Origin: Streptomyces sp. QL37
GTDB lineage: Bacteria; Actinomycetota; Actinomycetes; Streptomycetales; Streptomycetaceae
NCBI RefSeq assembly: GCF_002941025.1
Contig: NZ_PTJS01000001.1
Span: 1,674,001 to 1,738,000 of the forward strand
Length of the DNA: 64,000 bases
Reading direction: 5' to 3'
How positions within the stretch are numbered: the stretch's first letter is position 1; the number at the start of each line of letters is the position of its first letter. The translations under genes were made by a program, and so were the position numbers. The notes beneath the pieces were generated by a model. That model was not told the DNA's origin. It made no database searches and worked only from the letters and a program-made list of their open reading frames with translations. Below are positions 21,138 through 60,400 of the stretch, piece by piece.

Positions 21138-24100
21138 TCAGACCGCAGCGATGTCGGAGAGCCACTTCTCCACCGCTCCGGCGGTGGATTCGGCCCGGTC
21201 CTCCATGACCGTGAAGTGGGTGCCGGGTACTTCGGCGAGCTCGTGCGCGCCCTCCCAGACCGCCTGCCAGCCGTCGAGACCGGGTGCGAAGGGCTCCTCG
21301 GGCCGGACGAACAGCACCGGAGCGGTCAGCGGGCCCGGCAGGCAGTCCCCGATCAGGTCGCTGTAACGGCTCATCGCCGCGAGGCGCGCGGTGCCGAAGC
21401 CGCCCACGGACGATTCGCGGTCCAGCATGCCGTTGAACATCTCGCGCCGGAGCTGTTCGGTGCCGTCGTCCGCGAGCAGGTAGGTGTCCAGCAGGACCAC
21501 GCCGGAAGCCGGCCGGCCGGCCTTCTCCATCGCCTCGGCCGCCGCGTGGGCGAACTGCCCGCCGGAGGAGTAGCCGAGGAGCACATAGGGCCGTCCGTCG
21601 GCGCAGGCGCGCCGGATGCCGTCGACGACGACCTCCACGACCGCGTCGACGGAGCGCGGCAGCGGCTCCCCGGGCACGAAGCCGGGAACGTCCGGGACCA
21701 GCACGTCGCGTCGGCCGTGGAAGTGCCGGGCGAAACGGGCGTACTGGTGGGCGCCGCCCAGCGCCATCGGGGAGGGCAGGCAGAGCAGTCGGGGTCCCTC
21801 GTCCCCCGTCGCCAGGCGCACGGGGTCGCGCACGTCGCCGAACTCGGCTGCCGAGGAGAAGCCCGGCAGGATGTCCGCCGCGCTGTGCAGCAGCGTCATG
21901 GCCCGTTCCCAGTTGCCGTCGGCCGCCGCGCGCCGCACCAGCCCGCTGACCGATTCGATGTCGTCGTCCGCCGGCTCGGCGCCGTCCCCGGCGAGGTGTT
22001 CGCGCAGGTGGGCGGCGAGCGCGGTGGGCGTGCGGTGGTCGAAGACGACCCCGGCCGCGACGGTGACGCCGAGGGCGTCGGCGAGGGCTCCGCGCAGTTC
22101 GGCGGCGGAGACCGAGTCCATGCCGATCTCCAGGAAGGCGGCGTCGGGTTCGACGGCCTGCGGTCCCGCGTGTCCGAGGATCGCGGCGGTCTGCGCCCGT
22201 ACCAGGTCGGTGAGCAGGGCCTCCTGTTCGGCCTCCGGGGCCGCCGCCAGCCGCTCCCGCAGACCCTGCGCCTCCGGGACCGCGGCGGGGGCGACGGAAT
22301 CGGCCGGTCCGGCGGCCGGCCGCGCGGTGGGCCGGTCCATGGTGAGAGGGACGTCGGCATCCAGCCAGTAACGTTCGTGGCGGAACGCGTACGTGGGCAG
22401 CTCGGCGCGGGCCGTACCGGGGAAGAGCGCCGCCCAGTCCAGGGGCAGGCCGTCGGCGTGCAGCCGGGCGAGCCCGGACAGCAGGGCCGCCGGTTCGGCG
22501 CCGTGGCGTCGGCCGAGGGCCACGAAGGCGGCGTCGTCCTCGCCGACGCACTCCCGGACGAGACCGGTCAGGACGGCGTCGGGACCGACCTCGACGTAGC
22601 GGGTGACGCCCGACCCGGCGAGGGCGGCGACGGCGTCGGAGAAGCGGACGGTGCCGCGCACGTGCCGTACCCAGTAGCGCGGGTCGCGCAGTTGCTCCCC
22701 GGTGGCAGGAAGTCCGGTGAGCGCCGAGACCACGTCCACGCGGGGTTCGTGGAAGGTGAGCTGCGAGACGACCGCGTGGAAGTCGTCGAGCATGGCGTCC
22801 ATCAACGGTGAGTGGAAGGCGTGCGAGACGCTGAGCCGCTTGGTCTTCTCGAATCCCGCGGCGGCGGAGAGCACCGCATCGCGCTCCCCGGACAGGACGA
22901 CCGCCGACGGGCCGTTGACCGCCGCCAGGCCCACCCGTTCGTCCAGCAGCGGGCCGACCTCGTCCTCACCGGCCCGCACGGCGACCATGGCGCCGCCCTC
23001 GGGCAGGGCCTGCATCAGCCGGCCGCGCGCGGCGACCAGGGTGCAGGCGTCGGCCAGGTCCAGTACTCCGGCCACATGGGCGGCGGCGATCTCGCCGACG
23101 GAGTGCCCCGACAGCACGTCGGGCCGCACCCCCCAGGACTCCAGCAGCCTGAAGAGGGCCACCTCGTAGGCGAACAGGGCGGTCTGCGCGTACTGCGTGC
23201 GGTGCACCGCCTCGGTGTCCTCGCCGCTCAGCACACCCGCCAGGTCCAGGCCGAGGTGGGCGTCGATCGCGTCGAACGTCTCGGCGAACACCGGGTAGTG
23301 GGCGCGTAGTCCGAGCCCCATGCCGGGCCGCTGCGCGCCCTGGCCGGTGAACAGGAACGCGGTGCGGCCACCGGTTCGGGCCCGGCCGGTGACGGCGGTG
23401 GCCGAGGCGCCTCCGGCGGCGAGAGCGTCCAGCCCCGCCCTGACCTGCTCCCGGTCGCCACCGACGACCACGGCCCGGTGGCCGAAGGCCGCGCGCCGGG
23501 TGCCCAGGGCCCTCGCGACGGCGGACACCGGCAGTCCGGGGCGGGCGTCGAGGAAGTCGCGCAGCCGCGCGGCCTGCGCGGGAAGGGCACGCGCGGAACG
23601 GGCGGACAGGGGCAGCATGACGGCCGGTGCGGGGGGTTCGGGCTCCGGGTGGGAGGAGGTGTCGTCGTCGGGTGCCTCCTCCAGGATCACATGCGCGTTC
23701 GTACCACTGATCCCGAACGACGACACCCCCGCACGACGCACCCGCTCACCCCGCACCCACGGACGCGCCTCCTCCAACAACCGCACCCGCCCCGCACCCC
23801 ACTCCACCTTCCGCGACGGCTCACCCACATGCAACGTCCGCGGCAACACCCCCTCCCCCAACGCCAACACCATCTTCATCACACCCGCCACACCCGCAGC
23901 CGCCTGCGTATGCCCGATGTTCGACTTCACCGACCCCAACCACAACGGACGCCCCTCCGACCGATCCTGACCATACGCAGCCAACAACGCCTGCGCCTCG
24001 ATCGGATCACCCAACTCCGTCCCCGTACCGTGCGCCTCCACCACATCCACATCACCCGCCGACACACCCGCCGACACCAACGCCTGCCGCAACACCCGCT

Positions 24101-25019
24101 GCTGCGACGGACCATTCGGCGCCGTCAGACCATTCGACGCACCATCCTGATTCACCGCACTACCCCGCACCACGGCCAACACCCGATGCCCAAGACGCCG
24201 CGCATCCGACAACCGCTCCAACACCAGCACACCGAGGCCTTCGGAGAACCCGGTGCCGTTCGCGTCGTCGGAGAAGGACCGGCACCGGCCGTCCGGGGAG
24301 AGGGCGCCCTGGCGGCTGAACTCGACGTAGGTGCCCGGTGAGGCCATGACCGTCACTCCGCCGGCCAGGGCGAGGGTGCACTCGCCCTGGCGCAGCGCCT
24401 GCGCGGCCAGGTGGAGTGTGACCAGGGAGGAGGAGCACGCGGTGTCGACGGTGAGGGCGGGGCCCTCCAGGCCGAGGGTGTAGGCGACCCGGCCCGAGAC
24501 GACGCTGCCGGAGCCGAAGCTGCCGAAGTAGTCGTGGTACATGACGCCCGCGAACACCCCGGTGGGGCTGCCGCGCAGCGACGACGGATCGATGCCGGCG
24601 TGCTCCAGTGCCTCCCAGGACCCTTCCAGCAGGAGCCGCTGCTGCGGGTCCATCACCAGGGCCTCGTGCGGGGAGATGCCGAAGAACGCGGCGTCGAAGT
24701 CCCCCGCGTCGTAGAGGAATCCGCCCTCGCCGGTGGAGGAGCGGCCCGGGGTTCCCGGTACCGGGTCGTGCAGGTCCGGATCCCAGCCGCGGTCGTCGGG
24801 GAACGCGCCGATGCCGTCGCGGCCTTCGGCGACGAGGCGCCACAGGTCCTCGGGCGAACGGACTCCGCCCGGGTAGCGGCACGCCATACCCACGATCGCG
24901 ATCGGTTCCCGGGCCGCGGCGGTCTGCGCCCGGTTGCGCTCCCGCAGCCGCTCGATCTCCTTGAGCGAGGCGCGCAGCGCCTCGATCATCCTGGTGTCGG
25001 GCTTCTCGGACTCGGCCAT
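21138..25019 (-). CDS. type I PKS, terminal module E (KS-AT-ACP-TE)
   Basis: A 1293-aa protein that performs the last extension and releases the chain. An N-terminal docking helix ([19 protein letters not shown]) precedes KS (about 24905-23680; Cys in [11 protein letters not shown], His in EAHGTGT and NIGHTQ). AT (about 23350-22350) has GHSVGE and HAFH, both malonyl-CoA signs. There is no DH, KR or ER, so the beta-keto group stays. ACP (about 22240-22000) has Ser in [11 protein letters not shown] (about 21800-21140) has nucleophile GYSSG and His in GTHFTVMED. The start ATG has GAAGGAAGAG upstream, 14 nt after gene D. The KS 3' half (23660-24234) is a perfect copy of a tract in gene A with unlike codon use. 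Whether the TE forms a lactone, lactam or free acid cannot be read from the sequence. Confidence 0.95.
23660..24234 (-). repeat. 575-bp perfect repeat, copy 1 (KS of PKS E)
   Basis: Identical over all 575 bases to 58457-59031 by line-by-line reading, same orientation. It encodes the second half of the KS, through the HGT and NIGHTQ motifs, to the post-KS linker ending EEAPDDD. On the coding strand it uses TTG for Leu, GGT, GAT, CAT and TAT, whereas flanking sequence uses C/G-ending codons. Confidence 0.95.
24496..24554 (-). repeat. 59-bp KS patch, copy 1
   Basis: Identical to 29886-29944 (KS of module D3). It encodes the segment around [19 protein letters not shown] shorter similar stretch occurs in KS-D2 near 34945-34995. 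Confidence 0.85.
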
Positions 25020-25033
25020 GGTTCTCTTCCTTC

Positions 25034-28000
25034 TCACAGGGCGTCGTCGTCGCCGACGAGGTCGTCGAGCGCCAGGGTGATCAGACTCTCGGCATCCATG
25101 GCGTCGATCGCGGGGCGGCCGGACTCGCCGTTCGCGGACCGCTCGCGGTCGGGCCGCAGTCCGGCGAGTTCGAGCAGGCTGTCCAGCAGTCCTGCTTCGC
25201 GGATTCTGGCCACCGGAAGGGCGGCCAGTGCGGCACGGACGGTCTCCTCCTCGCGCGGGCCTTCCGTGACGGACGGCGCCAGTTCGGCGGCGAGGTGGTC
25301 GGTGAGGACGGCCGGGCTCGGGTGGTCGAAGACGAGGGTGGCGGACAGGCGCAGCCCGGTCGCCTCGTTGAGCCGGTTGCGGAACTCGACGGCGGTCAGT
25401 GAGTCGAAGCCGAGGTCCTTGAAGGCCACCTCCGCCTCGAACTCCTCGGTCCCGAGCACCTGTCGGGCCTCGTCCCGCACCAGTTCGAGCAGGCGCGCGG
25501 TCCGCTCCTCGGGCGTACGGGCGGCCAGGTCGCGGCGGAGCGCCGCCGAGGCCACGGACGCGGTGGCACCGCTGCGGCGGGGCGCGCGCACCAGGCCGCG
25601 CAGCAGTGGGGCGACGTGGCCGGCGTCCCGCGGGGTGCCGAGGTCCAGGCGGGCGGGCAGCAGGACCGGCTCCCCGCGTCCCACCGCGGTGTCGAAGAGG
25701 CCCAGGCCCTCCGCCGTGTCGAGGGCGAGTACGCCCCCGGAGGCCATGCGGCGCGCGTCGTTGTCGCCCAGGCGGTCGGCCATGCCTCCGCTGCCCGCCC
25801 AGGCACCCCAGGCGAGCGAGACGGCCGGCAGCCCCAGGGAGCCCCGGTGTGCGGCGAGGGCGTCGAGGAAGGCGTTGCCCGCGGCGTAGGCGGCCTGGCC
25901 CGGACTGCCGAACAGGCCGGCCGCGGACGAGAACAGCACGAACGCGGTCAGCGGACGGTCCGCGGTGAGTTCGTGCAGATGCCAGGCGGCGTCCAGCTTG
26001 GGCCGCAGCACCGTGTCCAGCTGCTCGGGCGTGAGGGAGGTGAGGACGGCGTCGGCGAGGACACCGGCGGTGTGCACCACCGCGGTGACGGGGTGGTCCT
26101 CCAGTACGCGGGCGAGGGCGGAGCGGTCGGAGGCGTCGCAGGCGACGAGGGTGACCCGCGCACCGAGGGCGGCCAGTTCCTCCCGCAGTTCCCCGGCGCC
26201 GGGGGCCTTGTCGCCGCCGCGGCTGAGCAGGACGAGCCTGGTGGCGCCGTGCTCGGTGGCCAGGTGGCGGGCCACCTCCCGGCCGAGAGCGCCGGTGCCG
26301 CCGGTGATCAGCACGGTGCCCGTCCAGTCGGCCGCTACGTGCCCGTCCCGGCGCGGTGCGCGGACGAGGCGCGGTGCGCTCACCGTGCCTTCCCGGAGCA
26401 CCAGTTGGGGTTCGCCGGAGGCGACGGCGGAGGGCAGCAGTCGGCGGGAGGCGTCGGTGTCGTCGAGGTCGGCCAGGGCGATCCGGTCGGGGTGTTCCGA
26501 CTGGGCCGAGCGGATCAGACCCCACGCGGTGGCGGCACCGGGGTCGGTGACCGCCGCGGCGTCGGGGCCGACGGCCCCCCGCGTGGTGACAACCAGGCCG
26601 GTGCCGGCGAACCGCTCGTCGGCCAGCCAGTCCTGGACCACGGCGAGGAGCCGCCGGGCCCCGGCGCGGATCTCTTCGGGGTTCCGTCCGCCGGGGTGCG
26701 GGACGACCAGGGTGTCGGGGGCCAGGGCTGCGGCTTCGGACAGTCCGGTGACGGTCGTGACCTCGGCGATCTCCCCGCCGAGCGCGGCGGCCAGGTCCTC
26801 GTGGCCGGAGCCGAGGACGGCCCACCGGCCCGCCTGCGGGGCGGTGGGCACCGCGACGGGAACCCAGTCGAGGGCGAACAGGTCCTCGTGCCCGCCGTCG
26901 GCCGCCGCGGCGATCCTGGCGGGGTCGACCTCCCGCAGCGCCAGCGACGCGACCCGTGCGACGGGCCGGCCGGCGGCGTCGGCGGCGTCGATGCGTACGG
27001 CGCCGGAGTCCAGGGGTGCGATCCGCACACGCAGGGCGGTCGCGCCCGCGGCGTGCAGTTCGACGCCGCTCCAGGCGAACGGCAACGCCATCCGCTCCAA
27101 GGCTCCGGCGCGCAGGCCGACGGCGTGCAGCGCGGAGTCGAGCAGCGCCGGGTGCAGTCCGAAGGCGGCACCGTCCGTGTCGACGGCGACCTCGGCGTAC
27201 ACCTCGTCATCGAGGCGCCAGGCGGCGCGCAGCCCCCGGAAGCGGGGCCCGTACTCGGCTCCCAGCGCCGCGAGCCGGTCGTAGACGTCGTCCAGGTCGA
27301 CGGCTTCGGCGCCGGCCGGCGGCCAGGACGTCAGGTCGTGGGCGGGCAGCGGGTCCGCCGGCCGGAGGACGCCGGTGGCGTGGGTGGTCCAGGGGTCGTC
27401 GTCGGCCGCCGCGTACACGGTGAAGTCCCGGGCGCCGGTGGCGTCCGGCTCACCGGCGGTGGCCTGGAGGCGGACGCCGCCGTGCTCGGGCAGCACCAGC
27501 GGTTCGGAGACGGTCAGTTCCTCCACCACGGGGCAGCCCAGCCCGGCCCCCGCGGCAAGGGCCATCTCGACGAACGCCGTGCCCGGCAGCAGCGCTACGC
27601 CGCCGACACGGTGGTCGGCCAGCCACGGCTGGGCGGAGAGCGAGAGCCGGCCGGTGTGCAGGGCCGCGTCGGCGTCGGCGCGCTCGACGGCGGCGCCGAG
27701 CAGCGGGTGGCCGACAGCGGGCCCGGGCTGCCCATGGTCGCCGGTCATCCAGTAGCGGCCCCGCTGGAAGGCGTAGGTCGGCAGGTCCGAGCCGTCGCGG
27801 TGGGGCAGCAGGTCCGTCCAGTCGACGGTGGCGCCGTGCACGTGCAGCGCGGCCAGCCCGGTGACCAGGGCCTCGGTCTCCTCGCGGTCCTTGCGCTGGA
27901 GGGCGACCACGGCGGCCGTGTCCTCGGGCAGGCAGTCACCGGCGGCCGCGGTGAGCGCGCTGCCGGGCCCGACCTCGGCGAAGTGCCGGGCGCCCGCGTC

Positions 28001-31000
28001 GTGCAGGGCGGACACGGCGTCGGCGAAGCGGACCGCCTCACGGGCGTGCCGTACCCAGTAGTCGGGGGTGGACAGTTCGTCGGCGGCCGCGGGGGCGCCG
28101 GTGAGGGTGGACACCAGCGGGAGGCGCAGCGACCCGTACGACAGCGACTCCGCGACCTCGCGGAACTCGTCGAGCATCGGTTCCATCAGGGCCGAGTGGA
28201 ACGCGTGGCTGACGGCCAGTTCCTTGCTCCGGTCGAAGCGGGCGGCGAGCGCGCGGGCCGGGCCGGCGGGGCCGGAGACCACCACGGACGTGGGGCCGTT
28301 GACGGCGGCGAGGCCGACCCCGTCCCCGAGCAGCGGCGTGACCTCGTCCTCAGCAGCGCGTACGGCGATCATGACCCCGCCGTCGGGGAGCGCCTGCATC
28401 AGCCTTCCCCGGGCGGCGACGAGCCGGCACGCGTCCTGGAGGCCGAGGACGCCCGCCACATGGGCGGCGGCGATCTCGCCGACGGAGTGCCCGGCGAGCA
28501 GGTCCGGCCTGACGCCGAACGACTCCAGCAGCCGGAACAGGGCCACCTCGAAGGCGAACAGGGCGGGCTGGGTGTACTCGGTGCGCTCCAGCAGTCCGGC
28601 GGAGTCGAGGACGTCGCCGAGCGGCCGTTCCAGCAGCGGGTCCAGGTGGGAGCGGACCTCTTCGAAGGCGGTGGCGAAGGCGGGGAACGTGATGCCGAGC
28701 CGGGTGCCCATGCCGGGCAGTTGGGAGCCCTGGCCGGAGAAGAGCAGGGCCAGCTTGCCGTCGGTCGCCGGGCCGGCCGTGCCGACCGGGGGTGTGCGTC
28801 CCTCGGCCAGCGCCCGCAGCCCGGCGGTCAGGTCCTCGCGGGTGTGCCCGACGACGGCGGCGCGGTGGCCGAGTGCGGTACGGGCGTGGGCGAGGGCGCC
28901 GGCGGTCCGGCGCGGGTCGGCGTCCGGGTGGCCGTTCAGGTGGTCCAACAGCCGGCCGGCCTGTGCCCTCAGTGCCTGGGGCGTGCGGCCGGACAGCAGC
29001 CACGGCACGGCACCCGCAACGGGCGCGGCGGGCGGCGTGGCGGGGGCGGACGGCTCGGCGGGCGGCGCCTCCACGATCACATGGGCGTTGGTGCCGGAGA
29101 TCCCGAAGGAGGAGATGCCCGCGCGGCGCGGACGGCCGGGGTCCGGCCACGGCAGGGACTCGGTCAGCGGGCGGACGTTGCCGCCCTCCCACTCCACGTG
29201 CCGGGAGGGTATGTCGATGCCGAGGCTGGCCGGCAGGGTCTCGTGGTGGATCGCCTGAACCATCTTGATGACACCGGCGACACCGGCGGCGGCCTGGGTG
29301 TGGCCCAGGTTGGACTTGACCGAGCCGAGCCACAGCGGGCGTTCCTCGGTGTGCTCCGCGCCGTAGGTGGCGATCAGGGCCTGGGCCTCGATGGGGTCGC
29401 CGAGGGTGGTGCCGGTGCCGTGGGCCTCGACCACGTCGACGTCGGCCGCCCCGACGCCCGCCGCTTCCAGGGCGCGGCGGATGACGCGCTGTTGCGCGGG
29501 GCCGTTGGGGGCGGTGATGCCGTTGGAGGCGCCGTCCTGGTTGACGGCGGTGCCGCGGAGCACGGCGAGGATCGTCCGGCCGTTGCGGCGGGCGTCGCTG
29601 AGCCGCTCCAGCAGCAGCACGCCGGCTCCCTCGCCGAAGCCGGTTCCGTCGGCGGCGTCGGCGAAGGGGCGGCAGCGGCCGTCGCCGGAGAGGCCGCGGT
29701 GCCGGCTGAACTCCACGAAGGTGCCGGGGGTGGCCATGACGGTCACTCCCCCGGCCAGGGCGAGGGAGCAGTCGCCCTGACGCAGCGCCTGCGCGGCCAG
29801 GTGCAGGGCGACCAGCGACGAGGAGCAGGCGGTGTCGACGGACAGGGTCGGCCCCTCCAGCCCCAGGGTGTAGGCGACCCTGCCGGAGACGACGCTGCCG
29901 GAGCCGAAGCTGCCGAAGTAGTCGTGGTACATGACGCCCGCGAAGACGCCGGTGTCGGAGCCGCGCAGCGTGGCCGGGTCGATGGAGGCCCGCTCCAGGG
30001 CCTCCCAGGAGGTCTCCAGCAGCAGCCGCTGCTGGGGGTCGGTGACGAGAGCCTCCTCCTCGTCCATGCCGAAGAAGGCCGGGTCGAAGTCGGCCGCGTC
30101 GTACAGGAAGGCGCCGTGCCGGGTGTAGCTGGTGCCCGGCCTGTCCAGGGTGGGGTCGTGGAGGGTCTCGACGTCCCAGCCGCGGTCCGCGGGGAACTCC
30201 CCCACGGCGTCACGGCCTTCGGCCACGAGGCGCCACAGCTCCTCCGGGGAGGAGACGTCGCCGGGGAAGCGGCATCCCATGCCGACGATGGCGATGGGCT
30301 CGTCGGCGGCTGCGCGTACGGCGGTGGCGGGCGCGGCCCGGTCGAGGGCACCGGTCAGTTCACCCAGCAGGTACCGGGCGAGTTCGGCCGGGGTGGGGTG
30401 GTCGAAGACCAGGGTGGCGGGCAGCCGCAGTCCGGTCGTCGCGGCGAGTCCGTTGCGCAGTTCGACCGCGGCCAGGGAGTCGAAGCCCAGCTCGCGGAAG
30501 GGCAGCGTACGGCTGACCTCCTGGGCGGAGCGGTAGCCGAGGATGGTGGCGACCCGGCTCTGCACGAGTTCGGTGAGGAACGGCTCGCGTTCCGGCTCCA
30601 GCAGCCCGGCGAGCCGGTCGCGCAGCGAGTCGGCCCCGCCTGCGGCCGCGTGGCCGGCGGTCGCGCGGCGTACGGGTACCAGGCCGCGGAAGAGCGGGGC
30701 CAGGGCGTCCGCCTGGCCGCGCAGCGCCGCGGTGTCCAGCCGGACCGGGAGGACGACGGGGTCGGTGCCGCGCAGGGCGGCGTCGAACAGTGCCAGTCCT
30801 TCCTCGGTATCCAGCGGGGCGACACCACCGCGGGCGATGCGCGCCCGGTCGGATTCGTCGAGGGTGCCGGTCATGCCGCTCGCCTGGGCCCAGAGGCCCC
30901 AGGCCAGGGAGTGCGCGGGCAGGCCGAGGGAGTGCCGGTGGACGGCGAGGGCGTCGAGGTAGGCGTTGGCGGCGGCGTAGTTGCCCTGGCCCGGGGAGCC

Positions 31001-34000: not shown

Positions 34001-37000
34001 CAGCGCGGCGGCCTGTCCGGCGAGCGCTGCGGGCGACTTCGCCGTGAGCAGCCACGGGACGGCGTGTCCCGGGGTGTCGGAATCCGGCGCCGCGGCGGGC
34101 TCCGGGGCCGCCGGAGCCTGTTCGAGGATGACGTGGGCGTTGGTGCCACTGATCCCGAAGGAGGACACCCCGGCCCGGCGCGGCCGGCCGGCCTCGGGCC
34201 AGGTCCGCTCCTCGGTCAGCAGGCGCACCTGCCCCGCCTCCCAGTCGACCTTGCCCGACGGTTCGTCGACGTGCAGGGTCCTGGGCAGGCTGCCGTGCCG
34301 CATCGCCATGACCATCTTGATCACGCCGGCGACGCCGGCCGCGGCCTGGGTGTGCCCGATGTTGGACTTGACCGACCCCAGCCACAGCGGCCGGTCCTCG
34401 GGCCGGTCCTGGCCGTACGTGGCCAGCAGGGCCTGCGCCTCGATCGGGTCGCCGAGGGTCGTACCGGTGCCGTGCGCCTCCACCACGTCGACGTCGGCGG
34501 TGGTGAGGCGGGCGTTCTCCAGGGCCTGGAGGATGACGCGTTCCTGGGAGGGGCCGTTGGGTGCGGTCAGGCCGTTGGAGGCGCCGTCCTGGTTGACGGC
34601 GGTCCCGCGGACGACGGCGAGGACCGGGTGGCCGTTGCGGCGGGCGTCCGAGAGGCGTTCCACCACCAGGACGCCGACGCCCTCGCCCCACACGGTTCCG
34701 GCTGCCGCGTCGGCGAACGCGCGGGTACGGGCGTCGGGAGCGAGGGCGCCCTGCCGGCTGAACTCGATGAAGGTCTCCGGGGTGGCCATGACGGCGACGC
34801 CGCCGACCAGGGCGAGGGAGGACTCGCCCTGGCGCAGCGACTGCCCGGCCAGGTGCAGCGCCACCAGCGAGGAGGAGCAGGCGGTGTCGACGGACAGCGA
34901 GGGGCCTTCGAGGCCGAGGGTGTAGGCGACCCGGCCGGAGATGATGCTGCCGGAGCCGAAGCTGCCGAAGTAGTCGTGGTACTGGACGCCCGCGAACACA
35001 CCGGTCGGGCTGCCCTTGAGGGAGTGCGGGTCGATGCCTGCGTGCTCCAGCGCCTCCCAGGAGGCCTCCAGCAGCAGCCGCTGCTGCGGGTCGGTGACGA
35101 GTGCCTCCTTGGGGCTGATGCCGAAGAACGCGGCGTCGAACGCGCCCGCGTCGTGGAGGAACCCGCCCTCACCGACGTAGGAGGTGTCGGGGCGCTGCCG
35201 GGTGGGATCGACGACGCGGTCCACGTCCCAGCCGCGGTTGGCGGGGAACGGGGCGATGGCGTCGGTGCCCTCGGCGACCAGCCGCCACAGGTCCTGCGGC
35301 GTGCGGACGTCGCCCGGGTAGCGGCAGGCCATGCCGACGATCGCCAGCGGCTCGTCGGCGCTTACCCGTCCGGTGCGCCGGGTGCGGCGGACGGCGCCGG
35401 AGGCCCCGGCGACCAGGGTGCCGAGATGCGTGGCGAGCGCCTCGGGCGAGGGATGGTCGAAGACGAGGGTGGCGGGCAGTCGCTGCCCCGTCTCGGCGGA
35501 CAGGGAGTTGCGCAGTTCGATCGCGGCGAGCGAGTCGAAGCCGAGGTCCTTGAAGGCCCGGTCGGTCTCCACGGTGTCCGGTCCGGCGTGTCCGAGGACG
35601 GCGGCCACATGGGTGCGGACGGTGTGCAGCAGCGCCTCGGCCCGCTCCGTCTCACCGAGGGAGGCCACGCGTTCGGCGAATCCGGACCCGGTGTCCCCGG
35701 TGGCGGCCTCCCGGCGGACCGGGCGCCCGGCCAGGGCACGGAGCACCGGGGCGAGTTCGCCGCCCTGGGCGCGCAGCGCGGACAGGTTCAGGCGCACGGG
35801 GGCCACCGCTGGGCGTCCGGTGCCCAGTGCCCGGTCGAACAGGGCGGTGCCCTCCTCGGCGGAGAGCGGGACCATGCCGCCGCGGGACATGCGGGCGAGG
35901 TCGGACTCGTCCAGGGCGCCGGTCATGCCGCCGGTCGGGGCCCAGGGCCCCCAGGCCAGGGCCAGGGCGGGCGAACCGTTCGCGGCGCGGTGGGCGGCGA
36001 GCGCGTCGAGGCAGGCGTTGGCGGCGGCGTAGTTGCCCTGGCCGGGGGCGCCGACGGTGCCGGCGACGGAGGAGAACAGCACGAACGCCGCCAGGTCGTG
36101 ACCACGGGTCAGTTCGTGCAGGTGGAGGGCGCCGAGTGCCTTGGGGGCGAGGACGGCGTCGAGCCGCTCGGGCGTCAGGGAGGCGACCACGCCGTCGTCG
36201 AGGACTCCCGCGGCGTGGACGACCGCGGTGAGCGGACGGTCCTGTCCGAGGCAGGTGAGCAGCGCGGAGACGGCTTCGCGGTCGGCGATGTCGCAGGCGT
36301 GTACGGAAGCGCTCGCGCCGAGCGCGGTGAGTTCGGCGACCAGGTCGTCGGCCCTGCCGCCGCGGCTGACCAGTGCGAGGTGGCGCACGCCGTGGGCGGT
36401 GACCAGATGCCGGGCGAGCACGGGCCCGAGTCCGCCGGTGGCGCCGGTCAGCAGCACGGTGCCGTCGGGGTCGAGGGCCGGGGCGAACGTGCCTTCCAGG
36501 GGCTCGGCGCGTACCAGCCGGGCCGCGCGGGCGGTGCCGGAGCGGACGGCGACCTGCGGTTCGCCGGAGGCGAGGACCGCGGGCAGCAGGGTGCCGGGGT
36601 CCGCGCCGGGTTCGAGGTCGAGCAGGACGCACCGGCCGGGGTTCTCCGACTGCGCGGAGCGCGCGAGGCCCCACACCGCCGCGCCGGCCAGGTCGGGCAC
36701 GTCCTCACCGGCGGTGGAGACGGCGCCCCGTGTGACGAGGGCCAGCGGCCGGGCGTCGTCGTCCTGGAGGGCTACGAGTGCGGTGTGCAGCGCGGCGCGT
36801 ACCGAGCCGGCGTCCGCGCCGGACGGGATCTCCAGCAGGCGGTGGTCGGCGGCGGGGGCGTCGGGGTCCAGCGCAAGCGGCTGCCAGTCGAGGACGAACA
36901 GGGCCTCGCCGGCGGTGTCCTGGGCGCCGCGCAGCCGCGTCAGCGGACGGGAGGCCAGGGAGTCGACGGTGGCGACGGGAGCGCCGGTGGCGTCGGCCAG

Positions 37001-45329: not shown

Positions 45330-50758
<5,429 letters not shown>

Positions 50759-50852: not shown

Positions 50853-50876
50853 CTAGGCAGGGGGCGGGCGCGCCTG

Positions 50877-51080: not shown

Positions 51081-51098
51081 GTTGACAAGGTTGACAAG
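51081..51098 (+). promoter_or_regulatory. tandem GTTGACAAG, LAL promoter region
   Basis: GTTGACAAG is repeated head to tail. Each copy holds a consensus -35 (TTGACA). TATAGC at 51103-51108 is 15 nt after the first, a short spacing. The duplication may be two overlapping promoters or a direct-repeat activator site. Confidence 0.45.
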
Positions 51099-51226
51099 GG
51101 CCTATAGCCTCGCTGTTTGTTTGATCGATTAGCTATTTTTCCTCCCTCCGGAAAAACTTGCCGAACAGATCAGGCCACACCACGAATGACTGGCTTTCAT
51201 TCTTACTGTGCTCATACCAAGAGCAG

Positions 51227-51236
51227 CCGTAGGGGG
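51227..51236 (+). promoter_or_regulatory. GTAGGGG box upstream of the LAL gene
   Basis: CCGTAGGGGG, 163-172 nt before the TTG start, in the same orientation to its gene as the boxes at 50877 and 14889. Possible autoregulatory site. Confidence 0.35.
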
Positions 51237-51398
51237 TTGGACCGCGACATCGAGGGCTACCTCGCCGGAACTGCGGTAACAGCCCTCGAACAGAAGCAAA
51301 TGCAGGTCAAACGGGGACTCGGACCGATCCCGTGCAACAGCACTTCACCCCAGACGGGCGCGAATCCACGGACGTTAACTGGACACAGGGGGAACACC

Positions 51399-54182
51399 TT
51401 GCGCCTTTACGACCGCTCCAAAGAATTACACATACTTAACGAAGCGTTTACCGAGAGCACTCGAAGATCCGGGCGGTTCGTGATAGTCACGGGCGGTCCC
51501 GGTTCCGGGAAGACCCAGCTTCTGCACGAATTCCTGGCGGCTGCGGGCCGCTCGGGCGCACACATACTCCAGGGCACGGCACACCCGGCCGAGCGTGACC
51601 GGCCGATGAGCCTGTTGCGGCAATTGCTGCGCAACGGTGAGGTGCTGCCCGTTCCGTCGGACCCCGCTCGTCCGGCGGGCAGGCGTACGGAGCCTCTCCC
51701 CCGGAATTCCGAGCACCGGGGCGACACGCGATCAGACGATCCGGACAACGCGACGACGGAGACACTGCTGCGGCTCGCGGACGGTGAACGCCCCCTGGTG
51801 GTGGCCGTCGACGACGCCCATCTCATGGACGAGGCCTCGCTGGGCGCCGTCGTCCGCCTGCTCGACAGGAGCCGCTTCCGGCCCGTCCTCGTGGTGTGCG
51901 CCACATCCGGGCACCCGGGCACCGGACACTCCGCCTCCCACGCCGGACTGATCCGCCGGCCGCACCGCCGGGCCCGGCTCGGCCCCCTGTCGGAGCGGGG
52001 CGTCGGCGAACTGATCAGCGCCCAGTCGACAGCCGCCCGGTCCGCCGGGGTGGGCCGCGCCTTCCACCGGGCCACGGCGGGCAACCCCCTGCTGGTGCAC
52101 GCCCTGCTGGACGACAGCACCCGCCTCGGCCACGACATGGACCGCCCCCTCGCCAGCACCGCCTACCGTCAGGCGGTGCTGTCACTCGTGCACCGCGGGG
52201 AACCGCGCCACATACGGGTGATCCGGGCGCTCGCCGCCCTCGGCGCACCGGCTTCCGCCTACATCCTGGGGGAGCTGGCCGACACCACGCCCGCCGGTGT
52301 CGAGGAGGCCGTCGAGGCCCTCGGCTCCGTGGGGCTGCTCGACGGCCACGTCTTCCGGCTGCCGGCCGCGGCGACGGCGGTGCTCGAGGACATGGACGCC
52401 ACCGCGCGTGCCGCGCTGCACGGACGCATCGCCGACCTGCTGTACCGCAGCGGCGCGCCGGTGGGCGACGTGGCCCGGCACCTGCGCGCCGCCGACCGGG
52501 TCCCGCAGCCGTGGGGCCCTGGCGTGCTGCGCGCCGCCTCGGAGCAGGCCCTGGCCGCGGACGACGTGGAACTGTGCTGCGGTTACCTGAATCTGATGCT
52601 GCGCGACTGCGCCGACCCGCAGGAGCGCAACGCCCTGTCCGCCGCCCTCGCCCGAGCGGAGTGGCGGGTGAACCCCGCGGCCGCGGGCGCCCACCTGGAG
52701 CCGCTGCGCCGGCCCGCGCTGGACGGCGAGCTGAGCATGCGCGACACCGCCACCGTCCTGCGGCACATGCTGTGGCAGGGCGACACCGAACTGGCCGCCG
52801 AGACCGTCGCCACACTGGTGCCCGCGCACTCCCCCGGTGACGCGCAGATCCTCCTCGAGGTCGAGTTCGTACGGCAGTGGTTCTACGGCGTCGCGCTGCC
52901 CGCACGGAGCCCGCGGGGCGCCGGTGGCGACCCGCGCCGGCGGACTCCCGCCGACCGGTACGGCGGGCTTGCCGCGCAGGTGGCGGTCCTGGTCGGCGGT
53001 GTCGCGACGGACGACTCCGCCGCGGCCGTGGCCCAGGCGCTGCAGGGCCGCAAACTCGACCACCTCAACCTGGAACTGGTGGCGATGGCGCTCCTCGCGA
53101 TCGCCCACGCCGACCGGCCCGCGGTCGCCGCCGAAGCCTGCGACGCCCTGCTGGAGTCCTCGGTCGAGCGCCGGGCGACCACGTGGCAGGCAGTGCTCGG
53201 CAGCGTACGGGCGGAGATCGCGCTGCTCCGCGGCGACATGACCACCGCGGCCGAGGGCGCCGACAGAGCGCTGAGCAGCCTGCACGACGGAAGCTGGGGA
53301 GTCCTCGCCGGGCTCCCGCTGTCGACGGCGATCTTCGCCCACACCGCCATGGGCGCCTACGACGAGGCCGAGCGGGTGCTCAAACGGGACGTCCCCGAGC
53401 CGATGTTCCGCACCGTCTTCGGCATCCAGTACCTGCGGGCCCGCGGACACCACTACCTCGTCACGGACCGGCCGTTCGCCGCGCTCAACGACTTCGAGAC
53501 GTGCAGCAGCCTGATGCGGCAGGGGAACTCCAGCCTTCAGAAGGGCATTCCCTGGCGCTCCGACCTGGCCCTGGCCAATCTCCGGATCGGCAAGGCCCGC
53601 ACCGCCCGGGAGTGCGCCGAGGAGCAGCTGCGGCTGCCCGGCGGTCACAGCTCCCGCGCGCGGGCGATGGCGTTACGGATGCTGGCCGCCACGAGCAAGC
53701 CGCACCGCCGGGCCTTGCTGCTGCGGGAGGCGATCGACCTGCTCAAGCTCTGCGGCGACCAGCACACCCTCTCCCAGGCCTACGCCGATCTCTCCGCGGC
53801 GCACTACGAACTGGGCGAGTACGCCCGTGCCCGGCTGGTCGCCCGCCAGGCGGCCCTGGAGGCGGAGGCGTGCAGCGTCGACTCACCGGTCGACGCACAT
53901 CTGCTGGAGGACCCCGGCCAGTCCGAGGGATCCGAGGCGGAGGGCTCGGCCATCCTGAGCGACGCGGAGTGCAGGGTCGCGGGTCTCGCCGCGCTGGGGT
54001 ACACCAACCGCGAGATCAGTGGCCGGCTGCACGTCACGATCAGCACGGTGGAACAGCATCTCACCAGGGTCTACCGCAAGTTGCACGTGGCCAGCCGGGC
54101 CGAACTGCCGCCGAAGATGCTGGAGCACCGCATCCCGAAACTTTCCGACCGATGGGCGGCCAGCCACTCCTCGGCGGGCTGA
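51399..54182 (+). CDS. LAL-family LuxR transcriptional activator (pathway-specific)
   Basis: A 927-aa large ATP-binding LuxR regulator. Walker A GGPGSGKT (32-39), Walker B PLVVAVDDAH (about 132-141), a long TPR-like middle, and a C-terminal LuxR HTH (about 852-900: LSDAECRVAGLAALGYTNREISGRLHVTISTVEQHLTRVYRKL). Start: TTG at 51399 has AGGGGG 6 nt upstream and begins RLYDRSKELHIL, the usual LAL N-terminus; the open frame back to 51117 does not look coding. Codon 10 (51426-51428) and codon 759 (53673-53675) are TTA, the rare Leu codon read by the bldA tRNA, so translation should depend on development. It sits between PKS genes A and B, divergent from B and convergent with A. Members of this family activate macrolide and polyene clusters. 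Confidence 0.93.
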   Translation: MRLYDRSKELHILNEAFTESTRRSGRFVIVTGGPGSGKTQLLHEFLAAAGRSGAHILQGTAHPAERDRPMSLLRQLLRNGEVLPVPSDPARPAGRRTEPLPRNSEHRGDTRSDDPDNATTETLLRLADGERPLVVAVDDAHLMDEASLGAVVRLLDRSRFRPVLVVCATSGHPGTGHSASHAGLIRRPHRRARLGPLSERGVGELISAQSTAARSAGVGRAFHRATAGNPLLVHALLDDSTRLGHDMDRPLASTAYRQAVLSLVHRGEPRHIRVIRALAALGAPASAYILGELADTTPAGVEEAVEALGSVGLLDGHVFRLPAAATAVLEDMDATARAALHGRIADLLYRSGAPVGDVARHLRAADRVPQPWGPGVLRAASEQALAADDVELCCGYLNLMLRDCADPQERNALSAALARAEWRVNPAAAGAHLEPLRRPALDGELSMRDTATVLRHMLWQGDTELAAETVATLVPAHSPGDAQILLEVEFVRQWFYGVALPARSPRGAGGDPRRRTPADRYGGLAAQVAVLVGGVATDDSAAAVAQALQGRKLDHLNLELVAMALLAIAHADRPAVAAEACDALLESSVERRATTWQAVLGSVRAEIALLRGDMTTAAEGADRALSSLHDGSWGVLAGLPLSTAIFAHTAMGAYDEAERVLKRDVPEPMFRTVFGIQYLRARGHHYLVTDRPFAALNDFETCSSLMRQGNSSLQKGIPWRSDLALANLRIGKARTARECAEEQLRLPGGHSSRARAMALRMLAATSKPHRRALLLREAIDLLKLCGDQHTLSQAYADLSAAHYELGEYARARLVARQAALEAEACSVDSPVDAHLLEDPGQSEGSEAEGSAILSDAECRVAGLAALGYTNREISGRLHVTISTVEQHLTRVYRKLHVASRAELPPKMLEHRIPKLSDRWAASHSSAG

Positions 54183-54210
54183 CCTACGGCGCACCTCTCC
54201 GCACCGCACC

Positions 54211-54247
54211 GCCCCCTCCACGGGTCCCCACGGGCCCCGGAGGGGGC
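54211..54247 (+). terminator. terminator of the LAL gene
   Basis: GCCCCCTCC (54211-54219) / GGAGGGGGC (54239-54247), perfect 9-bp stem, 19-nt loop, 28 nt past the stop. Confidence 0.6.
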
Positions 54248-54276
54248 TCCGTTCTGCCCACCCGGTCCCGCCCGGA

Positions 54277-54306
54277 CAAGGGCAAGGGCAAGGGCAAGGG
54301 CAAGGA
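54277..54306. repeat. CAAGGG hexanucleotide tandem repeat
   Basis: Four perfect CAAGGG units and a fifth ending in A, in the convergent intergenic region. Likely slippage product, useful as a strain marker. Confidence 0.85.
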
Positions 54307-54373
54307 CGGGTGCCGGGACAGGCGCCCCGCACCTGCACCGGTGACGAACAGACGCGTCGTGCGGGGACGGGGC

Positions 54374-54418
54374 ACGGGTGAGCCCGGGGCGCGGTACACG
54401 CGCCCCGGGCTCACCCGT
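54374..54418 (-). terminator. very strong terminator of PKS A
   Basis: Perfect 20-bp stem ACGGGTGAGCCCGGGGCGCG with its complement and a 5-nt loop GTACA, starting 17 nt past the PKS A stop. It blocks read-through from gene A into the antisense of the LAL gene. Confidence 0.85.
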
Positions 54419-54434
54419 CCGTGCGTCCGGCGGT

Positions 54435-57400
54435 TCAGCCGAAGCTGCCGAGTTCGCCGTCGAGGATGCCGAAGAGCTCGTCGGCCGTGGCCGCTTCCAG
54501 CCCCTTCTCCCCGGTCTCGCCGGGCTTCCCGGGTTCCGGCCACTGCGCCGATCCGTCCCACCTGGCGGTGAGGGACCTGAGCCGCGCGGCCACCCGGGCA
54601 CGGCGCTCGTCGTCGAGCCCGTCGGAGCCGAGCACCGTACCCAGCAGCGTCTCCAGGCGTACCACCTCCGCCTCTACGTCGACGAGCTCCTCGTCGGTCC
54701 CGGCCCCGCCCAGTTCCTCGAACAGGTGATGGGCGAGGGCCTCGGAGGTCGGGTAGTCGAAGGTGAGGGTGGTGGAGAGCCGCAGGCCCGTCTCGGCGCT
54801 CAGGCGGTTGCGCAGCTCCAGTGCGGCGAGCGAGTCCACGCCGAGGTCGCCCAGCGGACGTTCGGCGTCGACGGCGCCCGCGGAACCGTGTCCGAGGACA
54901 TCGGCCACGTGCCCGCACACCGTGTCGACCAGCAGCCGCCTGCCGTCCGCGGCGCCGAGCACGGCCAGCCGCCGCGCCAACGGCTCCGGCTCCTCCGGGG
55001 CGGCCTCCACCGCCCGGACGGCCCGGCGGGCCGGCGCCGACGCCGGTTCCAGGGCGCGGACCAGGGCCGGGGCGTCCTCGGTGACCTGGACGCGGATCGG
55101 CAGCAGCGACGGTTCGCCGGTGGCCAGGGCCCGGTCGAACAGCGTCAGCGCCCGGTCGGCGGGCAGCGGCAGGATGCCGTCACGGGCCAGCCTGCGCATC
55201 TCGGCCTCACCGAGGCCGGCCGCCATGCCGTCGCCGGTGTCCCACAGCCCCCAGCCCAGTGACAGGGCGGGCAGCCCCTCCGCCCGCCGCCGGGCGGCGA
55301 GGGCGTCGAGGAAGGCGTTGCCCGCCGCGTAGTTGGCCTGACCCGCCGCTCCCAGCGTGCCGGCGGCGGAGGAGAAGAGGACGAAGGCGGCCAGGTCCAG
55401 GTCGCGGGTGAGTTCGTGCAGGTGCCAGGCGGCATCGGTCTTGGGCCGCATCACCGTCTCCGTGCGCGTTGCGGTGAGGTCGGTGAGCAGACCGTCGTCC
55501 AGGACGCCGGCCGCGTGCACGACGGCGGTCAGCGGGTGGGCTTCGGGAACGGAGGCCAGCAGCTCGGCCAGCGCGGCGCGGTCGGTGGTGTCGCAGGCGG
55601 CGAAGGTGATCCGCGCGCCGGAGGCGACGGCCTCCTCGTGCTCTCGCGCGTCCGGTGTCCGGCCGCCGCGGCCGACCAGCAGCAGGTGCCGGACGCCGTG
55701 GTGCTCGGCCAGGTGCCGGGCCACCAGGCGGCCGAGACTGCCGGTGCCGCCGGTGATGAGGACGGTGCCCCCGGGGTTCAGCGGGATGGCCGGCCCGGTC
55801 CGGGCCCCGTCGGCCCGGGTCAGCTCCGGTGTGTACACCGTGCCCCCGCGCAGGGCGAGTTCGGGTGCTCCGGTAGCGACGGCGGCCGCCAGGACGGCGG
55901 CCGACGCGGCGTCACCGTCGGTGTCGGCCAGCACGAACCGGCCGGGGTGCTCGACGGCGGCGGACCGGACCATGCCCCAGATGACGGCCTGGGCCGGGTC
56001 CGGCACCCCGTCGGGGGCGACGGCGACCGCGGACCGGGTGACGACCACCAGGGGGGCGCCGTCCGCCGGTTCGGCCAGGTGTTCCTGGAGCGCTGCGAGG
56101 GTGCGCACGGCGGTGCCGCGGGCGCGGGCCGGCAGGTCGCCGTCCGTGGCGTCGTCCAGGGTCACGGTCAGGGTGCGGGGCTCGGCGGTCACCCCGTCCG
56201 CGGTCACGTCCGCCGGGGTCCAGCGCAGGGCGAACAGGTCGCCGGAGGCGGGCGCGGCCGCGTTCAGCTGCTCGGCCGTCACCTGGCGGACGCGCAGCGA
56301 CGCCGCCTCGGCGACCGGTGCGCCCGAGGCGTCGTACAGCCCCAGGGTCATGTGGTCCGTGCCGTGCGGGGTGAGCCGCAGTCTCAGGGCCGTGGCACCG
56401 GTGGCGTGCAGGGTGACCCCCTCCCAGGCGAAGGGCAGGGTCATGACGGTCGGGTCCTGGCCGTCCAGCAGGTCGATGGCGTGCAGCGCCGAGTCGAGGA
56501 GCGCGGGGTGCAGTCCGAATCCGTCGGCCGCTTCGGCGTCGGGAAGGACGAGTTCGGCGCAGACCTCGTCGCCGAGCCGCCAGGCGGCGCGCAGGCAGCG
56601 GAACAGCGGGCCGTAGCCGTACCCCTGCTCGGCGAGGTGGTCGTACAGTCCGCTCACCTCGACGGGGACGGCACCCTCCGGCGGCCAGACGCCGACGGGG
56701 GCCGGCTCGGGCGCGGTCCGTGGGGTGAGGACGCCGGTGGCGTGGCGGGTCCAGTCGCCGCCGGTGCCCTCGGGCCGGGCGTGCACGGCCAGTTGCCTGC
56801 GCCCGTCGGCGTCGGGAGCCGCGGCGGTGACCTGGAGGTGCACGGAACCGCGCGTGGGAAGAACCAGCGGCCGTTCCAGGGTGATCTCCTCCACGTGCGG
56901 GCAGCCGGCGCGGTCGCCGGCCTGGAGGGCGAGTTCCACGAAGGCGCTGCCGGGCACCAGGACGACTCCCGCGACGGCGTGGTCGGCCAGCCAGGGGTGG
57001 GTGGCCAGGGAGAGGCGGCCGGTCAGCGCGAGGGTACCGGCGGCGGCCAGGGTGAGGGCGGCGCCGAGCATCGGGTGCCCGGCGGCCGTCTGGCCGAGCC
57101 CGCCGGCGTCGGTGGCCGCCCCGGGCCCGTCGTCCAGCCACAGCCGCTGCCGCTGGAAGGCGTACGTCGGCAGGTCGACACGCCGGGCGTCGGTGCCCGC
57201 GTGAATCCGCTGCCAGTCGACGGGCACCCCTCGGACGTGAGCGGCGGCGACGAGCGCGGCGAGCGTCATCTCCTCGTCGCGCTCGCGGCGCAGGGCCGGT
57301 ACGAACACCGACCGTTCCGGGTCGGCTAGGGCGTGCGTGCCCATGGCCGACAGGACGGCGTCGGGGCCCAGTTCGAGGAAGGTGCGGACGCCGTCGTCCT

Positions 57401-60400
57401 CCAGGGCCCGGATCACGTCACCGAAGCGGACCGCCTCCCTGACGTGACGCACCCAGTACTCGGGCGAGCACAGCTCGTCCTCGGTGGCGTACGTGCCCGT
57501 GACGTCGGAGACGACGGGGATCGTGGGCGCGGCGTAGCTCAGTTCGCGAGCGGCCTTCTCGAACTCGGCGAGCATCGGTTCCATCATGGGCGAGTGGAAG
57601 GCGTGGCTGACCTTCAGCCGCTTGGTGCGGCGGACGGCGAAGGCGGCGGCGACCGCGTCCACGGCTGCGCGCGTACCGGAGACCACGACCGCGCGCGGGC
57701 CGTTGACGGCGGCCAGGGAGACGTCGGGGCCGAGATGCGGCAGCACCTCGGCCTCGGTGGCGTCCACGGCGAGCATGGCGCCACCGGCGGGCAGGGCCTG
57801 CATGAGCCGGCCACGGGCGGTGACCAGCCGGGCCGCGTCCGCGAGGTCCCAGACCCCGGCGACGTGAGCGGCGGTCAGTTCGCCGATGGAGTGGCCGGCC
57901 AGCCGGTCAGGACGGATGCCGTAGGACTCCAGAAGGCGGTACAGGGCCGTCTCCACCGCGAACAGGGCGCTCTGGGTGTAGAGCGTGTGATCGAGCGACC
58001 CGGCCGCGTCGGTACCCGGCTCGGCCCACATGACCTCGCGCAGCGGGCGGTCCAGGTGGGCGTCCAGGGCCTCGCACACCTCGTCCAGGGCCCGCCGGAA
58101 GGCGGGGTGGGCGTCGTACAGGCCGCGGCCCATGCCGGCCCGCTGGGCGCCCTGCCCGGTGAACAGGAAGGCGGTGCGGCCGGCGACCGGCCGGCCGCGC
58201 ACGACGGTGTCGACGGTGGCGCCGTCGGCCAGCGCGGCCAGGCCCGCCAGCAGTTCGTCCCGGTCACGGGCGACGACCGCGCCCCGGTGAGTGAGTGCGG
58301 CACGGCCCGTGGAGAGGGAGTGGACGAGGTCGGTGATCCGCTCGTCGGCTACGGAGCACAGCCGGTCCGCCTGGTCGGCCAATGCCGCGGGGGTGGCCCC
58401 GGAGACCACCACGGGGAGCAGGGGAGCGGCTTCGGTACCGGGCGAGGTGTCCGCGCTGTCGTCGTCGGGTGCCTCCTCCAGGATCACATGCGCGTTCGTA
58501 CCACTGATCCCGAACGACGACACCCCCGCACGACGCACCCGCTCACCCCGCACCCACGGACGCGCCTCCTCCAACAACCGCACCCGCCCCGCACCCCACT
58601 CCACCTTCCGCGACGGCTCACCCACATGCAACGTCCGCGGCAACACCCCCTCCCCCAACGCCAACACCATCTTCATCACACCCGCCACACCCGCAGCCGC
58701 CTGCGTATGCCCGATGTTCGACTTCACCGACCCCAACCACAACGGACGCCCCTCCGACCGATCCTGACCATACGCAGCCAACAACGCCTGCGCCTCGATC
58801 GGATCACCCAACTCCGTCCCCGTACCGTGCGCCTCCACCACATCCACATCACCCGCCGACACACCCGCCGACACCAACGCCTGCCGCAACACCCGCTGCT
58901 GCGACGGACCATTCGGCGCCGTCAGACCATTCGACGCACCATCCTGATTCACCGCACTACCCCGCACCACGGCCAACACCCGATGCCCAAGACGCCGCGC
59001 ATCCGACAACCGCTCCAACACCAGCACACCGGCGCCCTCCGACAGGGCCGTGCCGTCGGCCTCCTCGGCGAAGGACTTGACGCGGCCGTCCGCGGCGAGA
59101 TTGCGCTGCCTGCTGAAGTCGACGAAGGTGTCGACGGTCGACATGACGGAGACTCCGCCGGCCATCGCCAGGGTGCACTCGCCCCGCCGCAGCGCCTGCG
59201 CGGCGAGGTGCAGCGCGACCAGGGACGAGGAGCACGCGGTGTCGACGGTGAGGGCCGGGCCCTCCAGGCCGAGGGCGTAGGCGACCCGGCCCGAGACGAC
59301 GCTGGCGAGGCTTCCGTTGCCGAGGTAGTCGCGGACGGCCTCGGGGACGTCGCGCAGCCGGCTGCCGTAGTCGTGGTACATGACGCCGGCGAACACCCCG
59401 GTGCGACTGCCGCGCACACTGTGCGGGTCGATGCCCGCGCGCTCCAGCGCCTCCCAGGAGGTCTCCAGCAGAAGCCGCTGCTGCGGGTCCATGGCGAGGG
59501 CCTCGCGGGGGCCGATGCCGAAGAAGTCGTGGTCGAAGTCGGCGGCGTCGTACAGGAATCCGCCCGAGCGGGTGCTGCAGTGGCCGGGCTTGCCGGGTTC
59601 CGGGTCGTACAGGGTGTCCAGGTCCCATCCCCGGTCGTCCGGGAAGTCGCCGATGCCGTCCGCGCCGTCGGCGAGCAGCCGCCAGAACTCCTCGGGTGTG
59701 GTGACACCGCCGGGGTAGCGGCAGGCCATGCCGACGATCGCCACGGGCTCGTCCGCCGCGGGTGCCGTCTCCGGCACCACGGCCCCGGGGGCGTCCCCGG
59801 CGTCGGCGCCGAGGAGTTCCGTCCTCAGATACCTCACCAGGGCGTCGGCGTCGGGGTGGTCGAAGACGAGGGTGGCGGGCAGCCGCAGGCCGACGGCGCC
59901 GCCCAGACGGTTGCGCAGTTCGACCGCGGTCAGCGAGTCGAACCCGGCCTCACGGAAGGAGCGGCGCGGGTCGAGCACCATGTCCGCACCGTGACCGAGG
60001 ACCGCGGCCACCTGTGTACGGATCAACTCCGACAGCTCCGCGTCCTGTTCGGCGCGTCCCAGGGCGGCCAGCCGGTCGGCGAGCGAGGACCCGGCGGTCC
60101 GGGCGGCGGCGGCCCGGCGGGCGGGAGCGGGCACCAGACCGCGCAGCAGGGCCGGGACACCGTCGGCGCCGCGCAGAGCACGCAGGTCCAGGCCGATGGG
60201 CAGCAGCAGATGTTCGTCGGCGGCGAGCGCGGCGTCGAGCAGCCGCAGTCCCTCCTCGGTGGGCAGGGGCCGGACTCCCGCACGCGTCATGCGCTCGACG
60301 TCGGCGTCGGTGAGGTGGGCGGTCATGCCGGTGCGCTGCTCCCAGAAGCCCCAGGCGAGCGAGAGCCCCGGCAGCCCCAGGGAGCCGCGGTGCGCGGCGA

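Follow-up and report, generated by a model that had tools for sequence, protein, structure and literature searches.

The DNA analysed here is a 64,000-nucleotide stretch of the genome of Streptomyces sp. QL37 (contig NZ_PTJS01000001.1, positions 1,674,001 to 1,738,000; hereafter the window), which lies inside the 8.77-Mb contig C1 of an 8.78-Mb assembly in five contigs. Its minus strand carries most of a modular polyketide synthase (PKS) with ten ketosynthase (KS) domains, identified by Pfam along with its AT, DH, KR, ACP and TE domains. Two of the KS domains, KS4 in module 4 (organised as KS-AT-DH-KR-ACP) and KS10 in the last module, share a 575-bp tract of perfect identity and peculiar nucleotide composition, and the nature, age and origin of this tract are the subject of the present analysis. 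The features of the locus are collected in Table 1.

Table 1. Features of the PKS locus relevant to the shared ketosynthase tract (window positions)
Feature	Position	Strand	Basis
Copy 1 of the tract, C-terminal half of KS10	23660-24234	-	Exact 575-bp identity; GC skew 0.46, TA skew 0.30
Copy 2 of the tract, C-terminal half of KS4	58457-59031	-	Exact 575-bp identity
KS10 active-site Cys codon	24435-24437	-	Motif scan
KS4 active-site Cys codon	59232-59234	-	Motif scan
KS8 C-half, nearest paralog in the cluster, ordinary codon style	34102-34676	-	70% DNA, 78.5% protein identity
PKS gene, KS10-AT-ACP-thioesterase (last module)	21138-25037	-	Pfam
PKS gene, modules 3 and 4 (reaches 65099, beyond the window)	54435-64000	-	Pfam, open reading frame
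AAA/LuxR (LAL-type) regulator, marker for orthologous clusters	51117-54182	+	Pfam; search of 392 same-genus genomes
ASpks matches, probably conserved KS coding sequence	23925-23999, 29315-29389, 34367-34441, 39383-39457, 44235-44309, 49631-49705, 58722-58796, 63846-63914	+	Rfam RF01782

The two copies agree at 575 of 575 bases, and the identity cannot be extended by a single base at either end. In the coding direction the tract begins 203 nt past the first base of the active-site Cys codon, in KS4 and KS10 alike, and it ends at the start of the KS-AT linker without reaching the AT. Outside it the two domains diverge, with 79.1% identity between the N-halves and 63.3% over the linker/AT stretch downstream. 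The tract-bearing halves retain both catalytic His motifs. The first-pass annotation, made from the sequence of the window, was thus right in describing two perfect, sharply bounded copies between divergent flanks, confined to the His-motif half of the KS and stopping in the linker.

It was equally right in describing a foreign-looking codon style inside the tract and codons ending in C or G outside it. Leucine is encoded by TTG at 16 of 20 positions in the tract vs 12 of 1949 in the remaining PKS, and T-ending codons are frequent for Gly (GGT, 16/26), Asp (GAT, 6/9), His (CAT, 4/5) and Tyr (TAT, 1/1). The third codon position is G, T, C and A at fractions of 0.717, 0.209, 0.068 and 0.005 in the tract, and of 0.326, 0.025, 0.604 and 0.045 in the other 16808 PKS codons, which take in about 140 codons upstream of the likely start of one gene because genes were taken as longest open reading frames. 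On the coding strand the GC skew of the tract is 0.46 and its TA skew 0.30; the eight other KSs have, over this segment, values from -0.14 to -0.05 and from -0.19 to -0.08, respectively, and 60 random recodings of the tract peptide with the codon usage of the cluster reached at most 0.095 and 0.041. Among 300-bp windows from 20001 to 63950, only those over the two copies combine a GC skew >0.25 with a TA skew >0.2. The other KSs examined in the related genomes G029, G076 and G096 (see below) have the ordinary style; a tract style running through the other KSs of relatives, which would have refuted the first-pass reading, is not what they show.

Repeats within a single assembly-line PKS that are linked to gene conversion and are commonest in actinobacteria have been described as GRINS (PMC9899208, PMC10394414 and PMC11907408). 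We applied the procedure of PMC9899208 (windows of 150 nt, an identity above 80% to another part of the PKS over 500 bp or more, mean absolute skews >0.15) to positions 21138-76048, with an ungapped comparison replacing the pairwise alignment of that paper. Exactly two of the 26 high-identity regions qualify, namely 58439-59158 and 23639-24718 (720 and 1080 bp, with mean best identities of 0.96 and 0.92), around the exact core of 575 bp; the mean absolute GC and TA skews of the tract itself are 0.484 and 0.318. PMC10394414 characterises GRINS as about 1 kb long, often >90% identical and with skews >25%; the called region around the KS4 copy has GC/TA skews of 0.42/0.29 and that around the KS10 copy 0.29/0.25, the last value being just at 0.25. 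The repeat lies in assembly-line PKS coding DNA according to Pfam, and the site patterns described below associate it with gene conversion. By published criteria, the pair is therefore a GRINS, i.e. a known kind of element, with which it shares the intra-PKS location, the length above 500 bp, the identity above 80%, the intense GC and TA skews and the link to gene conversion. It differs in having a sharp exact core restricted to the KS C-half and linker, in comprising just two copies in non-adjacent modules, and in that relatives exchange the same segment with little skew. GRINS have been assigned a role in late AT diversification; the tract ends before the AT.

With the AAA/LuxR regulator as a marker, 391 further genomes of the genus were searched, and 14 of them gave a match with an E-value of 1e-100 or below. 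Three genomes (G076, G029 and G096) contain the tract at the same two modules. In G076 and G029 both copies are in place, spaced as in QL37 (34.8-34.9 kb), and differ from each other at 3 and 17 positions, respectively; the clusters of QL37 and G029 align colinearly over two blocks at 93% identity. G096 has both copies too, but the contigs C24 (locus L099) and C20 (locus L100) each stop after 226 nt of tract, which would follow if the rest of both copies were identical and caused the assembly to break. Such breaks show that repeats of this kind disturb assemblies, and a collapsed repeat copied into two places of the QL37 sequence would be another explanation of the perfect identity. We consider it very improbable, since the QL37 assembly is nearly complete, two copies that differ from each other are found in place in the independent assemblies of G029 and G076 (the latter in 2 contigs), and an artefact of this sort could mask a few differences without creating the pair.

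Comparison of the three genomes with both copies complete reveals how the pair evolves. Across QL37, G029 and G076 the tract contains 50 sites that are species-specific and common to both copies and none that is copy-specific, while the adjacent upstream flank (-60 to +202) contains 2 and 35 such sites, respectively. Within a genome the two tracts are 100% (QL37), 99.5% (G076) and 97.0% (G029) identical; between these genomes the identity is 90.9-93.5%. The contrast between tract and flank indicates concerted evolution after the species split, and strongly supports a conversion between modules 4 and 10 that is recurrent and has continued after speciation in all three lineages. The first-pass annotation had proposed a very recent conversion of the second module: the conversion stands, but a single recent event does not. 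A duplication or conversion in this strain only would account for the zero differences within QL37; as a full account it is contradicted by the site pattern, by G029, G076 and G096, which also carry the pair (in G096 truncated at the contig ends), and by four more distant clusters with a similar one, and we consider it very improbable. The latest event in the QL37 lineage may nevertheless be recent, though the relation between the two modules is old. Concerted evolution of KS and AT domains within PKS clusters is described in PMC4256081, where domains are likewise homogenised by internal recombination; here, unlike in that description, it concerns one half-domain of one fixed module pair among ten, with a distinct codon style.

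In the more distant clusters, G386, G279, G205 and G401 (regulator matches of 77-85%, partial in G401), the KS4-type and KS10-type domains are alike again, over 534 bp at 100%, 437 bp at 99.8%, 560 bp at 96.4% and 566 bp at 88.3%, respectively. The left edges of these segments lie at +204 to +213 from the Cys codon. In the clade of QL37 the exact 575 bp start at +203, the segment of G076 spans 589 bp at 99.5%, and the longest exact run in G029 is 216 bp from +203, so that across the seven genomes with a paired KS4/KS10 the left edge falls between +202 and +213. None of the eight sister-clade copies reaches a mean absolute skew of 0.15 in both measures (G386 has 0.23/0.12, the others at most 0.133/0.137), as opposed to all six copies in QL37, G029 and G076 (0.47-0.51/0.30-0.37). 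At the KS4 position of G016, G170 and G093 the GC skew of the C-half is 0.12, 0.04 and 0.01. Since the sister copies are homogenised with skew below the threshold, copying at this locus is independent of intense skew.

Some sister clusters show further rearrangements of the same half-domain. The KS at the KS4 position of G016 (locus L103, contig C14, Cys codon at 37634) has a KS10-like N-half (88.5% identical to KS10 and 79.3% to KS4 of QL37) and a KS4-like AT side (82.9%), a mosaic that suggests a longer conversion in that lineage. On contig C2 of G386 (locus L101) two KSs 10 kb apart, at 7083974 and 7094337, have N-halves that are 100% identical. In the former, the frame of the tract region is seemingly disrupted and the downstream stretch is only 55-59% identical to others; it was missed by the KS scan and stands outside the pair counts. 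The protein of the KS10-type C-half at 7094337 is 89.0% identical to KS8 of QL37 and that of its N-half 69.9%, and the C-half of G093 KS4 groups with KS7 in the 82-row tree described below (96/93). The half-domain thus seems to have been drawn from different sources in different lineages.

The spectrum of silent changes sets the tract of the QL37 clade apart. Between QL37 and G029, four-fold sites differ at similar rates in the tract (35/218, 0.161) and outside it (1613/11176, 0.144). The 35 tract differences comprise 27 between G and T, 8 between C and G and none involving A, while outside the tract only 90 of the 1613 are between G and T (Fisher test, 7e-26); the KS4 copy alone gives 14 of 19. 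When third-position changes in the three species are polarised by majority, 50 of 71 in the tract fall within G/T, compared with 100 of 2161 outside. Because silent change keeps its normal rate yet consists largely of G/T exchanges, where a decaying import would give an ordinary spectrum, the skew is being maintained, i.e. the bias is live. The five KS4-position copies of the sister clade (ten pairs, which are not independent) differ in 437 of 1129 four-fold comparisons of the tract (299 C/G, 37 G/T) and in 266 of 1452 of the N-half; there the tract is silently faster than the N-half, yet not bound to G and T. Skewed KSs from other loci, compared in six pairs, show 26 G/T changes among 59 four-fold differences, but 21 of these 26 come from three related copies. 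An excess of keto gains at the first and second codon position (tract 28 to 13, outside 460 to 393, p 0.078) is not claimed.

Selection might also keep KS4 and KS10 alike if both modules needed the same C-half for substrate gating, and the pairing of the same two module types in seven genomes, in a segment with two catalytic His motifs, agrees with such a shared function. Protein selection, however, explains neither the identity at silent sites nor the G/T bias of silent change, and between QL37 and G029 the tract protein (94.2 and 91.6% identical in the two copies) differs more than the other eight KS C-halves (96.3-100%), which makes this explanation improbable. Against G076 the corresponding values are 93.2 and 92.7% for the tract, but the C-half of KS3 is equally low at 92.7%, and a faster change of the tract protein is therefore not established.

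The remaining question is where the skewed segment came from. The first-pass annotation had it imported as a KS fragment from another cluster and proposed looking for a donor cluster with the same codon style along its length. No non-orthologous match better than 85% was found in 392 same-genus genomes (two candidates scored per genome) or better than 83% in 61 relatives (ten scored per genome), and the QL37 genome outside the cluster gave one match of 149 bp at 70% among the 40 of 80 candidates that were scored. Import thus found no firm support, although a tract-like codon style is common among other PKS-type loci. It would require that the ancestor of QL37, G029, G076 and G096 acquired, in one module, a KS half of the GRINS type from the PKS of another cluster; conversion would then have copied it to the other module and have continued since. 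At the DNA level the tract is indeed nearer to skewed KSs of other clusters (80-85%) than to the sister orthologs (71.4-78.0%), but this nearness tracks codon style; at the protein level it is about as near to the nearest foreign KS, L016 (81.2%), as to the sister KS4/KS10 rows (75.9-82.2%). A quick tree of 100 KS proteins, left after 8 of 108 entries had been dropped as too short, interrupted by stops or without motifs, placed the tract beside KSs from G014 and G013 (support 81-87). We dropped these as donors, because holding the QL37 and sister KS4/KS10 rows together scored 34 log units better (p-AU 0.87 in the approximately unbiased, AU, test), which means that the search behind the quick tree was incomplete. 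A more careful tree of 82 rows groups the tract of the QL37 clade with KS7, KS8, KS9, the sister KS4/KS10 and two foreign KSs (64/87), while 30 foreign KSs and KS1, KS2, KS3, KS5 and KS6 fall outside this group. Forcing the tract together with all 32 foreign KSs is 25.6 log units worse (AU p 0.06). Judged from these proteins, the tract appears, weakly, to be of local origin; import is disfavoured only, and we regard it as possible but unlikely.

Recoding in place is in our view somewhat more probable than not. Between the KS4 genes of QL37 and G386 the DNA identity is 87.6% in the N-half, 77.7% in the tract and 83.0% on the AT side, and at comparable four-fold sites each of the 23 C of the G386 tract corresponds to G (18) or T (5) in QL37, while a G corresponds to C at 2. 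The KS4 and KS10 sites would already have been exchanging sequence when, in the ancestor of the QL37 clade, the segment may have been recoded where it stood, as is suggested by the four sister clusters, in which almost the same stretch of KS4 and KS10 is homogenised at low skew. Its strands, rich in G+T and folding weakly on themselves, would then help strand pairing of the RecA type, and the easily paired patch could keep modules 4 and 10 converting, with the enzyme function of the two KS halves expected to be unchanged. The G+T fraction of the coding strand is 0.703 in the tract and 0.430-0.461 in the other eight KS segments. Folded as single-stranded DNA, the two tract strands give -93.4 and -61.7 kcal/mol and those of KS8, the only control with DNA parameters, -160.8 and -157.7; with RNA parameters, applied to all ten segments, the antisense strand of the tract gives -120.8 kcal/mol and those of the other eight -313 to -339. 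Biochemical work cited in PMC5948810 reports that RecA and Rad51 prefer GT repeat sequence.

Two other candidate features were considered. An R-loop reading receives no distinctive support: the RNA:DNA minus DNA:DNA energy of the tract is -0.169 kcal/mol per step, within the -0.140 to -0.175 spanned by the other KSs, and the 16 most hybrid-favouring 300-bp windows include two from KS8 besides those inside the two copies that start at 23774 and 58574. The E. coli Chi octamer is absent from both strands of the ten KS segments.

We consider it highly probable that the pair is a GRINS in the full sense, i.e. a KS segment whose coding strand has been recoded towards G and T and whose two copies, in modules 4 and 10, are repeatedly made alike by gene conversion. 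Several observations weigh against this account or parts of it. The pairing of KS4 and KS10 is not seen in every cluster examined: none of the four neighbouring KSs recognised in the fetched stretches of G016 is a full-length match to the KS at its KS4 position. The pooled tests of silent change take both copies, which are not independent. The protein of QL37 KS4 is 75.9-80.6% identical to six sister orthologs in the tract and 86.6-89.6% in the N-half, while the C-halves of KS2 and KS3 keep 85.3-93.7% identity to the sisters; the segment of the QL37 clade is hence more than a silent recoding of the sister segment, and may owe this to a foreign donor or to a faster change of the protein. In the careful tree, which was rooted at the midpoint and whose bootstrap had not settled, the node uniting the tract with local KSs is weak (64/87), two of the 32 foreign KSs fall on the side of the tract, and the AU test does not reject grouping the tract with all foreign KSs at the 5% level. 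The preference of RecA for GT-rich DNA is taken from one cited sentence.

Of the surroundings, the AAA/LuxR regulator sits between the module 4 gene and the module 5 gene, and in a plasmid collection no record had a single place covering 80% of it. Just upstream of the first PKS gene there are genes for a glutamate mutase E chain, a B12-binding subunit, a decarboxylase dependent on pyridoxal phosphate (PLP), an AMP ligase and a VinK-type acyltransferase. These starter genes point to a beta-amino-acid-primed, macrolactam-type PKS. The glutamate mutase pair, PLP decarboxylase, AMP ligase and VinK-type acyltransferase (with a VinK_C match) adjoining the PKS resemble those of vicenistatin-type macrolactam clusters; the ten KS domains of the PKS set it apart from them. 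These genes, with a methylmalonyl-CoA mutase, lie at L011:12090-19764 and L012:3261-5198, presumably as starter genes of a vicenistatin-like macrolactam. Eight matches to the Rfam family ASpks (RF01782) exceed the gathering score on the plus strand, antisense to KS C-halves; they probably reflect conserved KS coding sequence rather than eight small RNAs.

The origin and persistence of GRINS were reportedly described as unknown in the 2021 PNAS paper on these elements. The present locus goes beyond a routine GRINS in that it separates copying from recoding: related clusters form a natural series in which the same half-domain pair has strong, weak or almost no skew and is homogenised in seven genomes. 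A possible, though still doubtful, scenario is that conversion came first and recoding after, a fixed half-domain pair having been exchanged in the ancestor of several clusters until, in one clade, a still-active strand-asymmetric bias turned silent C (and A) into G or T, which now drift mainly into each other. On this view GRINS would arise from repeated exchange at a standing site and be reinforced later by GT-rich unstructured strands, rather than being imported. Silent change that is dominated by G and T at a normal rate provides a measurable signature for what sustains the skew, and a junction that evolution has used repeatedly for exchanging KS C-halves is relevant to PKS engineering.

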